Assembly: GCA_943704525.1 (NCBI GenBank)
Contig: CALSCQ010000188.1
Coordinates: 41,880-105,879 of the forward strand
Reading direction: 5' to 3'
Source: Pigoraptor vietnamica
Lineage: Eukaryota > Opisthokonta > Filasterea
Length of the DNA stretch: 64,000 nt
The translations under genes and the position numbers were made by a program. How positions within the stretch are numbered: the first letter of the stretch is position 1; each line of letters begins with the position of its first letter. Under the pieces are notes generated by a model. It made no database searches and was not told where the DNA came from. It saw nothing but the letters and a program-made list of their open reading frames with translations. Shown here one piece after another: positions 3-60,410 of this stretch.

Positions 3-3000
3 GCCGAGTACCGCGCCGCGCTCGTCGGCGAGTGGCACACGAACCTCGTGCGGCTGCAGGTGCCGCACACGACCGGCGTGACGCTCGTGGGCACGCTGAG
101 CGATCCCGTGCGCCTGCGCCAGTGGCAAATTGCGGGCCTGCCGCGCGACAGCCTCTCGGTCGAGAACGGCGTGATTGTGAGCGCGTCGCGGCGCTGGCCG
201 CTGTTCATCGACCCGCAGGGGCAGGCGAACAAGTGGATCAAGAACCTCGAGAAGGACCAGGGCCTCGACGTGGTCAAGCTCACCGACCGCGACTTCCTTC
301 GCAGCCTCGAGAACGCCGTGCGCTTTGGCAAGCCGTGCCTGCTGGAGAACGTCGGCGAGGAGCTAGACCCTGCGCTCGAGCCCATCCTGCTGCGGCAGAC
401 GTTCAAGCAGGCCGGCAGCACGGTCATCAAGATCGGCGACGCCATCATCCCGTACCACGACGACTTCAAGCTCTACATCACGACGACGCTGCCCAACCCC
501 CACTACACGCCGGAGGTCTCGGTCAAGGTGACGCTCGTGAACTTCACGCTCGCGCCGTCGGGCCTGGAGGACCAGCTGCTCGCGCTCGTCGTTGCGGAGG
601 AGCGTCCCGACCTCGAGGACGCGAAGAACCAGCTGATTGTGAGCAACGCGAAGATGCAGCAGGAGCTCAAGGCGATCGAGGACGAGATCCTGTTCCTGCT
701 GTCGTCGGTGCAGGGTAGCCCCGTCGACGACGAGCGCCTGATCGACACGCTGCAGGCGTCCAAGAAGACGTCCGAGGAGATCAAGACGAAGGTGGCGCAC
801 GCCGAGCGCACGGAGCGCGACATTGACGCGACGCGCAGCCGCTACATTCCCGTCGCGGTGCGCGTGCGCATCCTGTTTTTCTGCATCACGGACCTCGCGA
901 TGGTGGACCCGATGTACCAGTACTCGCTGAGCTGGTTCGTGGGCCTTTTCCTCGCGGGGATTGCGAACGCGGAAAAGTCGGACGACCTCGAGCAGCGCAT
1001 CGCGAACATCAAGGACTTTTTCACGTTCAGCCTCTACGCCAACGTGTGCCGGAGCCTCTTTGAGAAGCACAAGCTGCTGTTCTCGTTCCTGCTCTGCGGG
1101 CGCATCCTCATGGACGACGGCCGCATCGACATGGTCGAGTGGCGCTTCCTCACCGCCGGCGGCACGGCGTCCAAGGAGCAGCTCCCGAACCCCGCCCCGT
1201 GGCTCTCGGAGCGCGCGTGGGCCGAGGTCATGGGCCTCTCGTCCCTCCCGCGCTTCTCGAAGATCGCGCGCGAGTTCTACGACAACCTCGACGGCTTCAA
1301 GCGCGTGTTCGACAGCCCGAACCCGTACCGCGAGACGCTGCCCGGCAAGTGGTGCCAGTCGCTCGACGGGTTCCAGCGGATGCTTGTGCTGCGCTGCCTG
1401 CGCCCCGACAAGGTCACGAACGCCATGCAGGACTTTGTCGCGGACAACCTCGGCCAGCAGTTTATCGAGCCGCAGTCGGCGGACCTCGCGGTCGTCTTTA
1501 AGGACTCGAGCCCGACGACGCCGCTCATCTTTGTGTTGTCGCCGGGCACGGACCCCGCGAACAACCTCTACAAGCTCGCCGAGGAGATGCGCTTCAGCAA
1601 GAAGCTGTCGTCCGTGTCGCTCGGCCAGGGGCAGGGGCCGCGCGCGGAGGCCATGATGCGCGAGGCGATGGAGCGCGGGCACTGGATCTTCTTTCAGAAC
1701 TGCCACCTCGCGCCCAGCTGGATGCCGTCGCTCGAGCGGCTGATCGAGGGGATCGCCCCGGACAAGGTGCACCGCGACTTCCGCATCTGGCTGACGAGCA
1801 TGCCGAGCCCGAACTTCCCCGTGTCGGTGCTGCAGAACGGCGTCAAGATGACGGTCGAGCCGCCGCGCGGGATCAAGGCGAACCTCATGCGCTCGTACAA
1901 CGGCTTCAACGACGCGTTCCTCGAGTCGTGCGACAAGCACACGGTCGACGTGTGGAAGAAGCTGCTCTTCTCGCTGTGCTTCTTCCACGGCGTCATCATC
2001 GAACGGCGCAAGTTTGGCGCGCTCGGCTTCAACATCCCGTACGAGTTCACCGACGGCGACCTGCGGATCTGCGTGAGCCAGCTGCGCATGTTCCTCAACG
2101 AGTACGACGAGATACCGTACAAGGTGCTCAAGTACACGGCGGGCCACATCAACTACGGCGGGCGCGTGACGGACGACTGGGACCGCCGCACCGTCATGAA
2201 CATCCTCGGTGACTACTACTCCGGCGACGTCCTGCGTGACCAACACCTCTTCTCAGCGTCCGAGCTGCACTACCAGCCTCCGGCGACGAACCACAAGGGC
2301 TACGTCGCGTACGTGCGCGGCCTCCCCATCAACGACGCGCCGGAAATCTTCGGGCTGCACGCGAACGCGGACATCACGTTTGCGCAGAATGAGACGTACC
2401 GCATGCTCGGCGAAATTATGGCGATGCAGCCGCGCTCGGCGGCCGCGGGCGGGCGCACGCGCGAGGAGGTTGTCGGGGACATTGCGAACGACATTCTGTC
2501 GCGCCTGCCGCAGCCGATGAGCCTCGAGGCCGTGATGAAGGCACACCCCGTGCGGTACGAGCAGTCGATGAACACGGTGCTGATCCAGGAGGTCATCCGG
2601 TACAACCGCCTGCTCGCCGTCATCCACGAGTCGCTGCAGGACATGCTCAAGGCGCTCAAGGGCCTCGTCGTCATGTCGTCGCTGCTCGAGAGCGTCTTTG
2701 GCAGCATCTACAACAACCAGGTCCCCGAGCTGTGGGTCGCGCGCGCGTACCCCTCGCTCAAGCCGCTGGCCTCGTGGGTCGCGGACCTCCTGGAACGCAT
2801 CAAGTTCATCACGACGTGGCGCGACAAGGGCATCCCCAAGGTCTTTTGGATCTCGGGCTTCTTCTTCCCGCAGGCGTTTTTGACCGGAACGCTGCAGAAT
2901 TACGCCCGCAAGTACGTCGTCTCCATCGACTCGATCTCCTTCGACTTCAAGGTCATGAAGGGCACCGAGGCCGACATCCGCGACCCGCCGCAGGACGGGT

Positions 3001-3389
3001 CGTACATTCGCGGGTTGTTCCTCGAGGGCGGCCGCTGGGACGTCGACGCCGGCGGCCTCGCAGAGTCGCGTCCGAAGGAGCTCTACACCGAGGTGCCCAT
3101 CATCTGGCTGTTGCCGGTTGTGAAGCGCAAGAAGCCCGACAGTGGCGTCTACGAGTGCCCGGTGTACAAGACGCTCACGCGTGCAGGTACGCCGTGTTTT
3201 GTTCCGCAGAAAACGTTCGTTGTCAGTTTCCGAACTGCAAACTAATGCATTTGCGATCTCGCTTCAGGAACCCTTTCGACCACCGGCCACTCGACAAACT
3301 ATGTCCTCACAATCGAACTTCCCTCCAGTTTGCCGCAAAAGCACTGGATCCAGCGCGGCGTGGCGTTGCTTTGCGCCTTGAACTACTGA
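3..3389 (+). CDS. Axonemal dynein heavy chain, C-terminal 1101 residues (partial, 5' end outside window)
   Basis: Inner-arm axonemal dynein heavy chain, the ATPase motor of cilia and flagella. Two exons are visible, 3-3186 and 3268-3389, with an 81-bp intron; the frame is already open at base 3. The visible part begins near the end of the stalk/AAA5 region ([16 protein letters not shown], then [16 protein letters not shown]) and runs through AAA6 ([17 protein letters not shown]) to the dynein C-terminal domain. The second exon restores the family ending TTGHSTNYV ... [15 protein letters not shown]; without splicing the frame would end early in FRTAN. Residue pattern is closest to the single-headed DNAH3/DNAH7/DNAH12 group, which is a family-level judgement from memory. 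It implies a motile flagellum. Confidence 0.96.
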
Positions 3390-5283: not shown

Positions 5284-5643
5284 GCCACTCACCAAATCCG
5301 GAGTCGACTTCTCTTCGGAAATTATTTTCGACTAATTTTACTATGGCGTGACTCAGATTTGCCCTTTTTCCGGTGGTGCCATTCATTTTGACAGGTTGCC
5401 TTCCAGCCCTTTCCGGAGTTTCAAAGTTTGACACATCACTTCCACCGCAAGGACGCCAACTCGCCGACCCCTCCCAATTAAGCACGTGCGTATGGGAGAA
5501 GGCTTTCGGATGTCAGGGCCATTCGAGGAGCCGTTCGGTGCGTAATTTTGAGTTTCATAGTTTGTATTGTCAGATGTGTATGCGTTCCTTCCGCAAGTGC
5601 TTACATCACATTTCACATCACAGGCGGGCGGCCTGGGTTGTCC

Positions 5644-7824
5644 ATGGACCCCGTTTCGCTCAAAGATGACGTGCGCAATTGTCACGTCCTCATTGTGGAG
5701 GACAATGTGGTTTTGCAGCGTGTGTTGTCGAAGTGGCTCGAGAAGCTCAGCATTCGGCACACGCAAATGTTTGACGGCGCACAGGCCGTTTCCGCGTGCG
5801 AACAGACCGTGTTTGATGTCATTCTGATGGACTTGTCCATGCCCACGCTCAACGGCATTGAGGCTGCCAAGCTTATCAGGTGCGTCCGCGCCGCCTTCGT
5901 TCGGCTCCTGCGCGGTTATGTCGTGAGCCTGCTCCTGATTTTTTTTGGCGGGAATTCGCCCAGGTCGCGCGGTCAGAACACTTCGACCCCCATTGTCGCG
6001 TTCTCTGCCCTGACGGGCAACCCCGACTTTTTCGACGTGGGCATCAACGATTTCCTTCGGAAGCCGTTCACTAAGCACGACCTCGTGCGGAAGATAAACA
6101 AATGGGCCAAGGTGCGCGTGCAGCCGCAGCGCGTCAAGCACGACATGTCGTTCGAGGACCACTTTGGGGGCGGCGGCGACGACCAACACATCGACCTCTT
6201 GGACGACTTGCCGACCATTTTTGACTCGTTTGCGAACACACTGAACGAGTCTGCCCCAGCAGTGAGTGTCAGCGCGTCTTGTGTATGCGGCGTATGAAAC
6301 CGGGCGCTGACATATCTCGGGCGCTTGTGCACACAGCAAAAGGCCACGCGAGTGCTTGTTGTCGAAGACGATCCGGTAACGCAGCGCGTGATTACGACGC
6401 ACCTGCGCAAGATGGGCATTGACGTGGTGCAGGCGTTCGACGGACAGCAGGCGGTGGAGGCGTGCGCGTCGCTCAGCTTTGACGTGATATTCATGGACAT
6501 TTCCATGCCCAACATGAACGGGCTAGAGGCCACGCGCTTCATCCGGTGCGTCCCGTTCCTGCCATGGGCGTTTTCAGGCGCAGTCATACCGCTTCCCGGC
6601 GCAATGGGTTGCCTCGCTTGGCATCGCGTGGTTGTCTGATGCCTGTGTTGTCTGCTGTGCTGACGGTGGCTCTGTTGCAGGGACGGCACGGCGCGGTTCA
6701 CGCCCATCATTGCGTTCAGCTCGTTTGGCAGCCACGAGGAGTTTAGCGCCCTCGGCCTCAACGACTATCTCCCGAAGCCGTTCACCAAGGGCGACATTGC
6801 GGACATGATGGACAAGTGGTCGCCGTTCGCGGGGCGCGGCGTCGGCGAGGGCGAGGGCCCGGGTGCGGGCGCGGGTCCGCAGCAGGACGTGTTTGGGCCG
6901 CGCCCTCCGATGCCCGCCTCGATGGTCCCCGGCCTCGCGATGCACCCGATGCACTCGCCGCGTCCTCCCATGCCCCCGCAGCAGGGCATGCCGTTGGGCG
7001 CGCAGCCGGCCCTGTTTAAGCCTGGTCCGCCGCCGGGTGCCTTTGCTGGCCCCGTCGGCATGCAGTACGGGCCCGCGGGGCTGGGCCCTTCGCCGTCCCC
7101 GATGGGCATGGGCGCGGGAATGGGGATGGGGGGGCAGCCGGGCCTTGTGCCGGGGGTCGGCGTTGGCGTCGGCGTCCCCGTGCACGGCATGCACAACGGC
7201 CTCGGGCCGCGGCCGGCGGGGCCCATGGGCGAGTACGGGCCGCCGGGCATGATGGCGCACGGCCCGCCGAAGCCGCCGCTTGGGGCATCGCCATTTGTGG
7301 GCGGGGATGGGGGGCACATGGGAGGGCCGGGGCTTGGTGTGCCGCTGGGGCCGGGCACCGAGGATGGCCTCGACCCGTACGACAGCGCGGCGCGCAAGAA
7401 GATGAAGACAAGGTGTGTGCATGCGCTTGTTTTCTAATTCGCAGCACTCGGCGTGGCCTGCTGGTGTGTTTGCCTGATAGCAGCGTGAAAGGGCTTCTGT
7501 GTACTATCCACCCATCGCGCGCTGCGTTGCAGGCTGGGTGAGATTGACGAGGATTTCGAAAAGAGGGGCAAGGAGGAGTTTAGCCGCGCGAGCCACAATG
7601 ACAAGGAGCGGCTGCGGCGCAAAGAGATCAGTGACTGCGTGGACGAATTCCGGCGCATGGTGCCCGGGTGCAACGACAAGACGGACAAGGCAACCACCCT
7701 CCGCATGGCCGTGTCGTACATGAAGGAGCTCGTGCGCGCGCTCTCGAACGTCAGCGCGACGCAAACCGGAAGTCCGGCACCTGCGACGGCGTCGCCTGCG
7801 CGCGCGGACGGCCCTCCGTCTTAG
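5644..7824 (+). CDS. Tandem response-regulator receiver / bHLH transcription factor fusion
   Basis: Five exons (5644-5879, 5964-6261, 6337-6545, 6681-7412, 7533-7824) give 588 residues; every junction is GT-AG and phase-consistent. Residues about 13-125 and 182-290 are two complete receiver domains. Receiver 1 has E19/D20, phospho-acceptor D63 (LMDLSMP), S93 and K112; receiver 2 has E188/D189, D232 (FMDISMP), S261 and K280, so both should accept phosphate. Residues about 300-490 are a Gly/Pro/Met-rich linker. Residues 510-565 are a bHLH domain whose basic region HNDKERLRR has the H-E-R pattern of class-B factors that bind CACGTG. Likely role: a transcription factor controlled by histidine-aspartate phosphorelay. 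Receiver domains and bHLH domains are well known separately; I know of no described family combining them. Confidence 0.9.
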
Positions 7825-24291: not shown

Positions 24292-27200
24292 ATGGCACGG
24301 GCGCGGGTCGTCGTCGCCTTCGCGCTCGCGGTGTGCGTGCTGCACGCCGATTTCTGCGCGGGCGCCGCGTATGAGCGGAAGCGTGAGTGTTCGGCTGCGT
24401 GTGCGTTGCGCCGTGTGTGTATTGTCTATACGCAATTGCGTGTCGCCGTATGTGCACTTGTGTGTTGAAACAGTTCGATGTTCGACAGGTCGCCTCAATG
24501 ACGACATTTCGCACTTTGAGCCCCTTCGGCTCGACATTGATCGCATCCGCGATGCGCACGCGCGCCATCGCCGCTCCGGCGGCACTGTTCCCATGAGCGT
24601 GGACTTTTATGCTTTTGAGCGGTGAGTCGGCGTGGCTGATGCGCTCGCTCGGTCCCATGCTGACGCGCAATCGCCGCAGGAAATTCACGCTGCATCTTGT
24701 GCCCAATCGCCTCCACTTTGAGCAAGCGGTGTTTGAGGCCGTGTACGCGGACGGCGTCCCCGTCCCCATCAACCTCGACAAGTCGCAGTTCCTCCGCGGC
24801 ATCGTGGAAGGTGCGTTGCAGACGGCAGGTTGACCTTACGCATGGAACGGCCGACTGACGCGGACGCCCGCAGGTGACAAGGAGTCCGAAGTGGTGGTGT
24901 CGGTGATGGACGGGCGCCTCGAGGGCATGGTGAATGCCTTTGGCGACTCGTATCGCATCGAGAGCTCACATCGGTACATTCGCGAGGCGCACGACTTCAA
25001 CGCCGTGATGTACCGCGCGAGCGACGTTGACTTGTCCCCTCTCTACAAGCCCGGGTGTCTCGGGGGGCTGGAGCCGCCGCCCGTTGTGGGCGAGGACCCC
25101 CAGGCGATGATTGCGGACGAGGCGCTGCACTCGATGCTGACGCCGCAGTACCGCCCCGCGACCCGCCAGCGGCGCACGTTCAACTCGAAGTACTCGACGT
25201 GCATGATGTACCTTATCGCGGAGCACACGTTCACGCAAGACACGATTGCGATCATGCCGAACGGCGGCGCCGGTTTCACGGACTCGCAGAAGCAGGCTGA
25301 AGTGATCCGGCGTCTGGCGTCGTTCCTCTCGGCGGCCGACTCGATCTATCGCAAGACGAACTTTGGGGGCGACTCGGGGTACGGCCTGGGCATCTCGAAG
25401 ATGACGGTGTACTTCAACAACACGCCGAGCGTCTACACGCAGACGTCCGTGTCGGAGGACTACCTGCGCGTCTTTGCGCAGCAGTCCAATTTTGACGCGT
25501 ACTGCCTCGCGCACATTTTCTCCTTCCGCGAGTTCGACGGCGGCGTCCTCGGTCTTGCGTACCTGTCGTCCACGGGCAAGTCGGGCGGCATCTGCTCGAA
25601 GTTCGGCCCCGTGAGGCTCAGCGGCGGCACGGACACCGTCATGAGCCTGAACACGGCCCTCGTGACCACCCTCAACTTTGGCAAACGCGTCAGCTCGGTC
25701 GTCACCGAACTCACATTTGCGCACGAGGCCGGGCATAACCACGGTGCAAAGGTATGTGGGCCTGCCGCAGGCGCTTCTGGACGACTCTGACCTCTGAGCG
25801 TTGCCGTTCCCTTGTTCGTTGCCCTTCCAACGCAGCACGATAACGATGCGGATGTCAACTGTCCGAACCCCAATCCCGACGGGGGCAACTTCATCATGTT
25901 CGCACAGGCGACGGACGGGACCAAGGCAAACAACCGCCTCTTTTCGGACTGTAGCCGCGCGACAATGTCGCAAAACTACAACGCAAAGGCCGCCGTGTGC
26001 TTTAAGCGTACGTTGTCGATTGCCGCGTCTCGTGCGACACTGTGTGCAGAGCTCTAATGGCATGTTGTTGTTGCGCAGCGCAAACGGCCGCGTGCGGAGA
26101 TCTCATCATTGGCCCAACCGAGGCGTGCGACTGCGGCGGCGATGCGTCGCTGTGCGCCTCGATTGACCCGTGCTGTACGGCCAACTGCACGCTCGCGGCG
26201 TCCGCGGAGTGCAGGTGGGCCCTTGCAGTTTCGGTCGGCTCTCTTCACGCTTGCTCGCGCTGATATGTATCCCGTGTCGCAGCCCGAAGAAAACGGCCTG
26301 CTGCGATGACGCGTGTCACTTCCGCTCAACGTCCGTCGTGTGCAAGACAGAGAGCGACTGCACACCGGAAGTGAAGTGCAGGTGGGTTGCGGTCTAGTCC
26401 CGCCCATGGCGACCGCCCGAACTGGTTGCTCACGTAACGCATTGCCGCAGCGCGTCGAATAAGAACGGGTGCGGGCCCACGAACGTCACAGCGACTTTGC
26501 CCGACAACACGCCGTGTAACTGCCGCGACTCGGTGAACCGCAAGGACTGCCCTCTCGTCTGCGACGGGGGCGTCTGCCGGAAGAGCTTCTGCCAGACGCT
26601 CGGCCTTACCGATTGCCAGTGCCTCGCGCCCGAGTCGCGCTTGTGCACGCTGTGCTGCCGCGTCAATGGCACGTGCGTGTCCACGTTCGACATGTCGCCG
26701 CCGAAGAACATCACGCTCTCGTCGTCGATGGGCTGCAACAACAACCTCGGGTGGTGCGACGCCTCGAACATGGGGGTGGGCGGCTTCCCGCGCTGCCGCC
26801 TCATCAACCCGGGCAACTCGGGCTCCATATTCGGCTCGGACACGCTGAACAACGTCAAGAGCTGGCTGAAGAAGAACTGGTACTATGTGCTCGCGGGCGT
26901 CGGCGGGCTCGTCGTGCTCCTGATCCTCCTCAAGGTCACGTACAGGCCCAAGAAGACGGGCGAGTCGTTTGGACAGCGCGTGCGTAATTCGTTCCGCCGC
27001 AACCCGAAGCAGACGACGAGCGCACCGGCGTCTGCGGCGGCGTCTGCGGCGGTTATGGCCGCAGGTCAGCCGCTGCCTTACACTGCGAAGAACGCCGAGA
27101 AGTACAAGGAGTCGATTGCGATGGAACCGGTTCAGTACGTGGAGGGTCCGAGCGACGTCGACGCGAGGAGAGATGGTGGGTGACGCACTGGCCTGTCTGT

Positions 27201-42264: not shown

Positions 42265-45200
42265 ATGCGTGCGCGCTGTGTGTGGGGCTGCGACTAGCTA
42301 CTGACTGTGTGTGTGCATGCGTGTGTGCGGCTGCGACTAGCTACTGACTGTGTGTGTGCATGCGCGCGCTGTGTGGGGGGCTGCGACTGCTACTGACTGT
42401 GTGTGTGCATGCGCGCGCGGTGTGTGTGGGGCTGCGACTAGCTACTGACTGTGTGTGTGCATGCGCGCTGTGTGCGGCTGCGACTAGCTACTGACTGACT
42501 GTGTGTGTGCATGCGCGCGCGCTGTGTGCGGGGCTGCGACTGCTACTGACTGTGTCGCGTCAACAGTGCATCGGCGGACCTTTCGTCGGTGGCCACCGCA
42601 GACTCGGATACAATTCGCTCCTTTGCGACGGTCGTGCACATTTTGAAGTGGCGTGCGCTGCAGCACCCCGACAAGCCGACGCACACGTTCCTCGGCGAGG
42701 ATGGCGCAGTGGTGGACCGCCTCAACTACGCCGAGATGGACGTCGAGGCGCGCAAGGTCGCGGGCCTTCTCCAGACAACGGCAGGGTTTGCGAAGGGCGA
42801 CCGCGTCATTCTCGCGTACCCGCCGGGGCTCGACTTTGTTGTGGCCTTCTGGGGCTGCCTCTATGCGGGCGCGATCGCCGTCCCAGTGTACCCGCCGAAC
42901 CCGCAGTCCCTCTCGCGCGACATGCACAAGTTCCGGTGAGTGCGCGACGGCTTCTCCTTGCTCGGATGTGTGCGCGCCTCGGCATCTCTCTTTGTCACAT
43001 CGACAATGACTCCTGCTGAGACGTCTTGCGTGCCCTTGCGCCGCGCAGCAAAGTTGCCGAGGACTCTGGCGCGCGCATCGTCCTCACCACGCACATGTAC
43101 AATCTCGCGACGGGCATTGGCACCATCCGCCAGTCGCTCTCCGGCGGCGGCGTGCGGTGGCCGACGGCGCTGCAGTGGCTCACCACTGACGCGCTCCCCG
43201 ACGCCCTCGGCGGGTCGTACGTGGCGCCGGAGCTGGCGCGCGCGGACATTGCGTTCTTCCAGTACACGAGCGGGTCGACGTCGGACCCGAAGGCGGTGAT
43301 GGTGTCGCACGGCAACATCATGGGCCAGATGCTCACGTGGGACAGCATCCGCCCGGGTCACGTGCTCGTGTCGTGGCTGCCCTCGTACCACGACATGGGC
43401 CTTGTCGGGTACATCATCGTGCCGATGGTCGCCGCCGCGCACGTCGTCCAGTTCTCGCCCATCTCGTTCATCAAGAACCCCTTCCTCTGGGTCCAGACAA
43501 TCTCAAAGTACGGCGGCACCCACACGTGCGCGCCCAACTTTGCCTATGCGCTCACCGCGCGCAAGACGACGGACGCCCAGCGGGACACGCTCGAGCTGTC
43601 GCAGTGGCAGAGCGCCATCTGCGCGTCCGAGCCCATTCGCCCCGAGGCACTCAACGCCTTTGTCGAAAAGTTTGCGCCGGCGGGCTTCCGCGCCGACGCG
43701 TTCAACTGCGGCTACGGCCTCGCCGAGGTCACGCTCACGTGCACGCGGCAGAACCCGCTCGTCCCCGCGCCCTATGTGGTCCTGCACCTCGACAAGCGCG
43801 CACTTGAGACGGAGAAGACGGCCGCGGACGCCGACCCCGAGGTTGCGCAGCCCAAGGACATTGTGCGGCTTGTCGGCTGCGGCCGCGCGTGCCCCGACCA
43901 GAGCGTCGTCATTGTCGACCCGGACACTCACGAGCGGCTGCCCGAGGACCGCGTGGGCGAGATTTGGGTTTCCGGATCGAGCAACGCGCAGGGATACTGG
44001 CGGCGCCCGGAGCAGACCGAGGCGATGTTCCGCGCGCGCATCCGCGGCGATGCGACGGAGCGCCCGCACCTTCGCACGGGCGACCTCGGCTTTATCCGCG
44101 ACGGCGAGCTGTACGTCACGGGCCGCATCAAGGACATCATCATAGTGCGCGGCCGCAACATTCTCCCGCAGGACATTGAGCTCACCGTCGAGCAGGCGAG
44201 CGACCGCGTGCGCCCGGGTTGCGTCGCCGCCTTCTCGGTCGAGAAGGACGGTGAGGAGCGCCTCGTCGTCGCGGCCGAGTTGCGCGAGCTGGAGCGGCCC
44301 GCCGTGCACGCGGAGATTGTGCGCTCGATTCAGGACGCCGTGTTTGCGGAGCACCACCTGGCCTGCCACGCCATCAGCCTGCTCCGCCCGCGCTGCGTGC
44401 CCAAGACGACCAGCGGCAAGATCCAGCGGCACGGCGCGCGGTCGCAGTTCCTGGCGGGCACGCTCCGGGCCCAGCATTCGCAGACCTTCGACTTCACGCA
44501 CGACGACGACTCGCAGTCGACGTCCTCGGGCGGCAACGGCGAGTCGCGCGGCGAGCTCCCGCCGGCGGCCGACATTGAGCGCTGGCTGCTGCGGAAGATT
44601 GCGCCGCGCGTGCCGACGGCGGATGCCAACGCCACGTGGGCGGCGCTCGGCATGGACTCTGTCGCGCTCGTGGGCCTCGCGGCGGACCTGGGCAACTGGC
44701 TGGGCATCGTCGTCCCCCCGGCGGCCTTCTTCGAGCGCACCACCGTCCGCGCGCTCGCGGCGTACGTGGCGTCCGGTGTCTGCGCGTCGTCTTCAACGGG
44801 CGGTGCGTGCGCCGTAACCGAGCGCTTTAGCCAGCTCGAGCCGGGCCAGGAGGTCCCTCGCGAGTACTGCGAAATCGAGGAGTTCCCCGAGTTTGTGCAG
44901 CTGCAGCGGCAGAAGACCCAGCTGGAGGAGGCCGGCATCAAAATCCCCTACCTCCCCGTGATGAGCGCGGAGGATCGCCGGACGCGCCTCAACTTCAACA
45001 CGTACAACTACCTCGGCCTCGCGGGGCACCCGACCGTCGCCGCCGCGAGCAAGCGCGCGATCGACGAGTACGGCACGTCGATGTGCTCGTCGCCCATTGT
45101 GGGCCAGACGCGCCTGAACGTCGAGCTCGAGGAGGAGATTGCGTCGTTCCTGGGCGTCGAGAGCGCGATGGTGTTTATCGGGGGACACTCTGCGAACGTG

Positions 45201-46197
45201 ACGACAATCGGGCACCTCGTCGGCCCGCAGGACCTGATACTCTGCGACGCGCTCAACCACAACAGCATCGTGATGGGCCAGCGCCTCTCGCGGGCGACCG
45301 TCGTCCCCTTCCCGCACAACGACTGGCAGCAGGCGGACCGCATCCTCGCCGCCGTGCGCCACAAGTATCGCCGCGTGTTGATTGTCATCGAAGGTCGGTT
45401 AATGCCTAGCACGCCATTGTCGCGCGCGCGTGCATGTGTGCGTGTGTGTAGCACAACGAACCTGTCACATTTCAAGCATGTTTTGAGTATTGCGGGAACA
45501 TCAGCTGACATTGCCTCCGCTTGTGCCAGGCGTGTTCTCCATGGACGGCGACATTCCCAACCTTCCCGAGTTTGTCAGCATGAAGCGGAAGCACGGCGCC
45601 ATGCTGTACGTGGATGAGGCGCACTCGATTGGCGTTCTCGGCCGTACTGGGCGCGGCCTCGCCGAGTACCACGGGGTCGACCCGACGGCCGTGGACGTGT
45701 GGATGGGCACGCTGAGCAAGGCGATGGGCAGCTGCGGCGGTTACATTGCGGGCAGCAAGGCCCTCGTCGAGTATCTCAAGTTCACGTGCCCGGGGTTCGT
45801 CTTCAGCGTCGGCATGACGCCGGCAAACGCGGCGGCGGCGCTCGAGTCGCTGCGAATGACCGTGCGCGAGCCGGAGCGCGTCACGAAGCTCGCGGAGAAC
45901 GCGCGGCTGTTCCTTACGCTGGCGCGGGAGCGCGGCATGAACGTGGGCCGCAGCCACGACTCGCCCGTCGTGCCTGTCATCATTGGGGACACGCAGCGGT
46001 GCGCGCGCGCGGCCGAGCTGATGGCCAAGCGCGGGATTGACGTCAAGCCGATCATCTACCCGGCCGTCGAGGAGAACCAGGCGCGTCTGCGCTTCTTCCT
46101 CTCGCAGACGCACACGGTCGCGGACATTGAGCGCACGATCGACGCCCTCACGGAGATTGGCAAGGAGCTCGGCTTTGCGAATCCAGTGGATCGCTAA
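41895..46197 (+). CDS. Fatty-acyl-AMP ligase / acyl carrier / alpha-oxoamine synthase fusion enzyme
   Basis: Five exons (41895-41910, 41977-42157, 42567-42935, 43049-45393, 45530-46197) encode 1192 residues. After a basic N-terminus with a likely membrane helix (FLAAMFKALFVLILG, about 30-45) comes a fatty-acyl-AMP ligase (about 75-650: YTSGSTSDPKAVMVSHGNIM, SWLPSYHDMGLVG, YGLAEVTLT, LRTGDLGF, GRIKDIIIVRGRN). A carrier domain follows with the phosphopantetheine site LGMDSVALVGL (Ser about 726). The last ~400 residues are a PLP-dependent alpha-oxoamine synthase like serine palmitoyltransferase (YNYLGLAGHP, CDALNHNSIV, YVDEAHSIGVLGRTG, TLSKAMGSCGGY with Lys about 1034). Inferred reaction: ATP-dependent acyl activation, loading on the carrier, and decarboxylative condensation with an amino acid. 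The product is unknown. Confidence 0.92.
42228..42551. repeat. (GT)n tract and ~48-bp minisatellite in FAAL-fusion intron 2
   Basis: A (GT)16 tract leads into six tandem copies of a 43-52 bp unit: GTGTGTGTGCATGCGCGCGC, then a TGTGCGGGGC segment, ending CTGCGACTAGCTACTGACT. Copies differ mainly in GC/GT count. The array fills most of the 409-bp intron 42158-42566. Confidence 0.93.
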
Positions 46198-59828: not shown

Positions 59829-60410
59829 ATGGCCGAGCGAATCGAGCAACTGCTTTTTGTCATTGACAACGAACTCCAAACACAGCGAAATTCATCGCCG
59901 CCATCGGAGGAGGGCTCTGACGCCGGTCGCGTGCCGCCGTACGACCCATCGTCGCCGTCAAGCGCGTCTGACTTCTCGGATGTGAGCGTGCCTGGGGACG
60001 GCTCAGACCGACCATCGAAGCGGAGGAAGGTGTCGCTCGATGGCAGCTCCACTGACGGCGCGCAATCGGGGCGGGACGCGACCCGCAGCAAGCTTGCGCA
60101 CATTGCGTCGGAAAAGAAGAGGCGCGCGAGCATCCGCAACGGGTTTGATGAGCTGCGGCGGGAAGTGCCGACGTGCAACGCGTGCCACAGTAAGGCCGCG
60201 ATCCTCCAGAAAGCCGTCGAGCACATTCGGCTCTTGAAGCAGCGCAAGGACAACCGCGGGGAGAGCGAGGAGGCCGTGGAGCTGAAGCGGAAGCTCGGGT
60301 TTGCCGTGAACTTCATCGACGCCCTCAACAAGCAAAAATCGTCGCTGCTCGAAAACATTGCGCGCCTTGAGAGCGAACTCGCGCGCGCTCGGAGTGAACA
60401 GCGGCTGTAA
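59829..60410 (+). CDS. MLX: bHLH-leucine zipper transcription factor, MLX-like
   Basis: A single exon of 193 residues. Residues 1-90 are Ser/Pro/Asp-rich with a basic patch (RPSKRRKVS) that could be a nuclear signal. The bHLH domain reads HIASEKKRRASIRNGFDELR, then EVPTCNACHSKAAILQKAVE followed by HIRLL, closest to MLX/MLXIP (HTQAEQKRR ... SKAIVLQKTIDYI). A leucine/valine heptad region follows to the C-terminus. The H-E-R basic pattern predicts CACGTG binding. MLX proteins heterodimerise with MAX-network partners in metabolic control; the partner here is unknown. This is the second bHLH gene in the window. The first ATG in frame was chosen. Confidence 0.88.
   Translation: MAERIEQLLFVIDNELQTQRNSSPPSEEGSDAGRVPPYDPSSPSSASDFSDVSVPGDGSDRPSKRRKVSLDGSSTDGAQSGRDATRSKLAHIASEKKRRASIRNGFDELRREVPTCNACHSKAAILQKAVEHIRLLKQRKDNRGESEEAVELKRKLGFAVNFIDALNKQKSSLLENIARLESELARARSEQRL

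Follow-up and report, generated by a model that had tools for sequence, protein, structure and literature searches.

Can a phosphorelay receiver be wired directly to a basic helix-loop-helix (bHLH) DNA-binding domain in a relative of animals? The question is raised by a spliced gene on the plus strand at 5644–7824 (perhaps from 5492) of the 64,000-nucleotide stretch analysed here (hereafter the window), in which two complete receivers are followed by a bHLH domain. Eukaryotic receivers drive plant and fungal output domains: in plant type-B response regulators (ARR1/10/12) and in fungal Skn7/Prr1, a receiver is joined to a DNA-binding domain and is fed by a hybrid kinase and an HPt protein. The initial annotation knew of no described family with a bHLH output. 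We therefore asked whether the gene encodes one protein, whether that protein has relatives, where its domains may have come from and what might feed it.

Gene structure and domain content

Joining five exons across GT-AG introns, from ATG to TAG, gives exactly the 588 amino acids that had been predicted initially (Table 1); the joins themselves represent predicted splicing. An extra in-frame GT-AG exon upstream would lengthen the product to 610 amino acids; this exon is tentative because it is without conservation in the homologues described below. Residues of the window protein are numbered on the 610-amino-acid version. The frame stays open if intron 1 (84 nt) is retained, and no insertion matching its retention was seen in the alignment with any of the seven homologues.

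Table 1. Exons, domains and linker motif of the receiver-bHLH gene (window coordinates)
Feature	Coordinates	Strand	Remarks
Possible first coding exon (46 nt)	5492..5537	+	In-frame ATG; GT-AG intron to 5624; tentative
Exon with receiver 1 start	5624..5879	+	ATG 5644 inside; phospho-Asp codon 5830-5832
Exon with receiver 1 end and inter-receiver linker	5964..6261	+	Intron phase 2 after ..LIR
Exon with receiver 2 start	6337..6545	+	Phospho-Asp codon 6496-6498
Exon with receiver 2 end, long linker and basic stretch ARKKMK	6681..7412	+	
Last exon	7533..7824	+	bHLH domain 7585-7731; stop codon 7822-7824
Receiver 1 (residues 35-148)	5680..6105	+	Split by intron; Pfam, residue check
Receiver 2 (residues 204-316)	6346..6819	+	Intron at same place as in receiver 1; Pfam, residue check
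Acidic-hydrophobic linker motif DLLDDLPTIFDSF between receivers	6193..6231	+	Alignment

Pfam matches Response_reg to two stretches of the protein (154.1 bits for the whole protein; cut-off 30.2) and HLH to residues 532–580 of 610 (56.9 bits; cut-off 20.7). Both receivers are complete, as first described, with the acidic pair, phospho-Asp, Ser and Lys present in each, and the basic region of the bHLH domain has His5, Glu9, Arg12 and Arg13. The long linker between receiver 2 and the bHLH domain (190 amino acids) consists of Gly, Pro and Met to 57%. No PAS or other domain was found after the bHLH domain, and no GARP/Myb-like or HSF-type output domain anywhere in the protein, among Pfam matches at E up to 1; Pkinase and CCT domains likewise gave no Pfam match.

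Homologues with the same domain order

Whole-length and profile searches identified at least seven other proteins with the order two receivers, then bHLH. Scoring in both searches was confined to the 8000 candidates with most shared words, of which the 120 best were listed; the family may therefore have further members. The whole-length search found P0001 (578 amino acids, E = 1.0e-102; from a 9388-base contig in ENA) and P0002 (617 amino acids, E = 4.3e-102; EukProt label Nk52_evm16s32, which we take to denote the ichthyosporean Chromosphaera perkinsii), both annotated with both Pfam families, together with P0003 and P0004, whose database annotation has a receiver only and no HLH. The profile search added P0121, P0122 and P0123; P0121 (EukProt) is labelled a complete ORF, and its source sequence bears a name of the transcript-assembly type. 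When scanned directly, all seven proteins have two Response_reg stretches and an HLH domain over the Pfam whole-protein cut-offs, with HLH scores running from 21.7 (P0004) and 23.3 (P0003) bits, barely above the cut-off, up to 57.1 bits (P0001). A query with the bHLH part alone gave no hit at E up to 0.1 among 59 candidates, and a search of viral contigs returned 17 relatives. When the genome (a 32.5 Mb assembly of 1395 contigs) was scanned for Pfam matches, C68 was the only contig present in both the receiver list (40 matches) and the HLH list (27 matches).

Since seven other proteins carry the same domain order, sequence comparison indicates that the combination is a real, conserved family and not a joining artefact. 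The last exon junction of the window gene is a prediction, which is what the opposite reading, two adjacent genes (one for a double receiver, one for a bHLH protein) wrongly joined, would need. However, both halves are found in one protein in all seven homologues, one of them labelled a complete ORF; the open frame of the HLH exon contains no Met ahead of the domain, so that upstream exons are needed; and similarity to the homologues runs on across that junction. A wrong join is thus scarcely credible.

The family is of two kinds. In three of the eight members (the window protein, P0001 and P0002) each receiver has its full set of five active-site residues, whereas in receiver 1 of the other five the second acidic residue is replaced by Pro without exception; there, phospho-Asp and Thr/Ser are each kept in four of five (Glu and Ala, respectively, in P0122) and Lys in all five. 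Receiver 2 has its acidic pair, Asp, Thr/Ser and Lys intact in all eight members. Among the three domains it is also the best conserved, with a mean pairwise identity of 58.8% as compared with 45.9% in the bHLH domain and 42.3% in receiver 1. Loss of the second acidic residue from receiver 1 in five members, set against an intact receiver 2 in all eight, makes receiver 2 the likely switch. The same decay argues against the earlier suggestion that the two receivers are two inputs, at least if both are taken as necessary, and it means that control may be partly independent of phosphorylation.

Another reading is that the receivers are mainly protein-interaction modules. Plant pseudo-response regulators regulate without phosphate, and PRR/TOC1 carries a degenerate receiver on a regulator, comparable to receiver 1 of the five members; a T-box protein of the same genome, described below, also has a receiver with an altered phospho-site (LTE). 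Yet the family differs from PRR/TOC1 in having an intact receiver 2, and in the window protein by the lack of a Pfam CCT domain. Preservation of the receiver 2 active site throughout the family, in the very domain that has diverged least, makes regulation without phosphate an unlikely general explanation.

Two further features were seen in the alignment. An acidic-hydrophobic motif lies between the receivers. It reads DDLPTIFDSF in the window protein and YDDLxGIFDxM in P0001 and P0002 (YDDLTGIFDSM in P0002), is clear in these three members and weaker in the other five, and could bind a partner or coactivator. In the basic region, His5, Lys8, Glu9, Arg12 and Arg13 are present in all eight members, and Lys8 occurs in none of the 16 other bHLH domains of the genome with a readable motif (17 examined).

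Affinities of the bHLH domain and origin of the receivers

The best PDB matches of the window bHLH domain were ARNT2 (1.3e-8) and ARNT (1.6e-8), with BMAL1 also among them and MAX at only 0.0069; a profile of the eight members gave BMAL1 (5.1e-11), ARNT (2.6e-9) and MAX (4.2e-9), a modest margin. This refines the initial description of the domain as class B: its contact residues are those of CACGTG binders, but in the PDB comparison it is closest to ARNT/BMAL1. With these group C proteins, its closest solved relatives, the domain shares an ARNT-type bHLH and the His5-Glu9-Arg13 pattern; it differs in that no PAS match follows the bHLH, receivers lie N-terminally and Lys occupies basic position 8. 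The accessible text of PMC5064789 describes group C (PAS) bHLH proteins as specific to holozoans and treats PAS as a further motif for dimerisation. In a bHLH tree the family groups together (0.89), with no settled sister among the 17 bHLH domains of the genome that were used (of 27 places one is the window gene, and two partial domains and seven without loci were omitted).

The genome also encodes, in one 506-amino-acid frame (C241:4856–5947), a bHLH domain and two PAS matches in an ARNT-like layout, a possible partner for the receiver-bHLH protein. A second bHLH domain in the window itself (60090–60239, plus strand, 51.3 bits) groups apart from that of the receiver-bHLH gene. A CACGTG site lies at 5483, just upstream of the gene; since the window total of 48 sites is not above chance (43 expected; 23 of 100 shuffles reach 48), autoregulation through this site is unsupported.

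A partner such as the C241 protein is also part of another reading, in which the protein is a dominant-negative factor or phosphate sink (the latter proposed in the initial annotation): it would bind other bHLH partners and buffer the pool of HPt, while contributing little direct activation itself. The two intact receivers of the window protein and the lack of any Pfam domain after the bHLH are compatible with this, but a partner that does not bind DNA would not need His5, Glu9, Arg12 and Arg13, which all eight members have kept; we consider such a role improbable.

The origin of the receivers was addressed with a FastTree phylogeny (midpoint root) of 16 family receivers, 22 others from the genome and 35 bacteria-like ones, the last chosen by the family profile, a choice that counts against a kinase origin. 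The first receivers of all members form one group (0.85) and their second receivers another (0.90), and a further grouping unites the two (0.81). Next to them (0.84) are the receivers of two Rim15-like protein kinases on C1317 (L054) and C223 (L055), followed by a degenerate receiver of contig C336 and two bacteria-like ones (0.64, 0.71, 0.94). Both window receivers and both kinase receivers are interrupted by an intron of phase 2 that falls within the Arg codon of an ..IR motif; elsewhere in the genome, split receivers are mostly interrupted near profile position 60 instead of 67 (exceptions are L053, at 63–66, and L061 and L052, whose first pieces run to 70 and 84). The tree and the shared intron position and phase together give moderate support to a tandem duplication that predates the divergence of the sampled members, and to a common origin with the Rim15-like kinase receivers, although in those kinases the output is a kinase and here a DNA-binding domain. 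By plain identity the kinase receivers have no advantage over the bacteria-like ones (47% for the best Rim15-like and up to 50% for bacteria-like against receiver 2; 45% and up to 45% against receiver 1). Derivation from the resident hybrid kinases is less likely, as the tree places their receivers elsewhere and most split receivers break elsewhere.

Within the family, the window protein goes with P0001 and P0002 by its first receiver (0.80) and by its bHLH domain (0.76), but its second receiver groups, weakly (0.64), with the five members whose receiver 1 is degenerate. Those five thus appear as a group in each tree, but the remaining members possibly form a grade.

The gene on C336 (L063/L066, minus strand) encodes two degenerate receivers separated by a motif, YEDLDGLFNSV, that resembles the one in the window protein; no bHLH domain was detected in it (best 3.8 bits). 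It is perhaps a decayed paralogue.

Candidate phosphorelay components and a proposed mode of action

HisKA matches were listed at 26 places in the genome, 17 of them over the cut-off. Twenty loci were taken from the genome and ten frames from them were scanned with Pfam: five (L047, L050, L052, L059 and L061) combine HATPase_c with a receiver, L054 has a kinase and a receiver, L055 a kinase with the receiver in following frames, and L056 a receiver only; the remaining two, L046 and L053, have a receiver beside a T-box and beside a sub-threshold forkhead match, respectively. HPt was found at one place over the cut-off and at one weak place; the former was assembled by eye across two frames, with unverified splice sites. 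In this form it scores 48.6 bits, retains the HALKG motif and best matches plant-type HPt proteins in the PDB (7.9e-10; yeast Ypd1, 5.9e-7). With hybrid histidine kinases and HPt both present as candidates, each phosphorelay step has a putative representative in this genome.

We favour, with a probability of roughly 0.7, a response regulator that acts in the nucleus through a bHLH domain and whose dimerisation and E-box binding are controlled by phosphorelay. The seven homologues of the same architecture and the hybrid kinases and HPt of the genome support this reading, which follows the initial proposal of signalling directly into an E-box regulator. Phosphate from hybrid histidine kinases would travel by way of the small HPt protein to the receivers, with Asp254 of receiver 2 as its main target. 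Phosphorylation would alter receiver dimerisation, which in turn would promote or block pairing of the C-terminal ARNT-like bHLH domain and hence E-box binding, the receivers serving as an extra dimerisation module in a role like that of the PAS domains in ARNT. Receiver 1 would be a modulating duplicate, its site complete in the window protein and degenerate in five members. Nuclear location, phosphotransfer, dimer control, DNA binding and target genes are thus features that we infer for this protein.

As in eukaryotic response-regulator transcription factors, a receiver active site and a DNA-binding domain occur in the same polypeptide, and kinases and HPt (putative here) are encoded in the genome. 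Unlike the type-B ARRs of plants and Skn7/Prr1 of fungi, whose output is GARP/Myb or HSF, the protein has two tandem receivers and a bHLH output, and it is found in an apparent unicellular holozoan. What looks new, within a known kind of regulator, is the bHLH output domain and its conservation. No description of a receiver-bHLH protein was found among the papers listed from a literature with few subscription papers or preprints, or in the accessible portions of PMC4758236, PMC5064789 and PMC5560861. In the accessible portions of PMC4758236, animals are said to be without histidine kinases, and most response regulators of Physarum outside kinases to be without further feature.

Other observations concern the host and its regulators. 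Its description as a relative of animals agrees with 11 T-box matches, which lie on six contigs and of which 10 pass the cut-off, with cadherin repeats (47 matches, all on C1328 and C874) and with the bHLH-PAS frame. In the window, a dynein heavy chain (3–3242, plus strand) suggests a flagellate host; a reprolysin-like metallopeptidase is encoded at 24834–25787 (plus strand), and AMP-binding, phosphopantetheine and aminotransferase domains in adjoining frames at 42550–46194 (plus strand) possibly form a multidomain enzyme.

Receivers were also seen beside other DNA-binding domains. An uninterrupted 525-amino-acid frame (L046:3997–5571; C791:8996–10570) contains a T-box (197.9 bits) whose best PDB match is T protein/Brachyury, at 194.7 bits against 160.9 for the next class, as well as a C-terminal receiver (38.8 bits) in which the phospho-site reads LTE, Asp being replaced by Glu; the same replacement occurs in plant pseudo-response regulators. 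At L053:2410–4404 and upstream (C1035), three elements appear to belong to one protein: a cyclic-nucleotide-binding domain pieced together by eye from two frames (65.8 bits), a forkhead-like match that stays under its cut-off of 27 bits (20.4 and 22.2), and a receiver that is split by an intron and whose residues look intact.

It is conceivable, though we would place it slightly short of an even chance, that unicellular relatives of animals wired phosphorelay receivers into bHLH, Brachyury-like T-box and forkhead-like factors, and that this layer disappeared from animals along with their histidine kinases. If so, phosphorelays once acted directly on transcription factors of developmental families. 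For the receiver-bHLH family, an ARNT-like bHLH domain stands behind receivers in apparent close relatives of animals, so an ancient signalling route may run straight into an animal-type regulator. The family offers a defined case in which to ask whether a receiver can stand in for PAS in controlling bHLH dimerisation, and the fate of phosphorelay-controlled transcription on the way to animals becomes a testable question.
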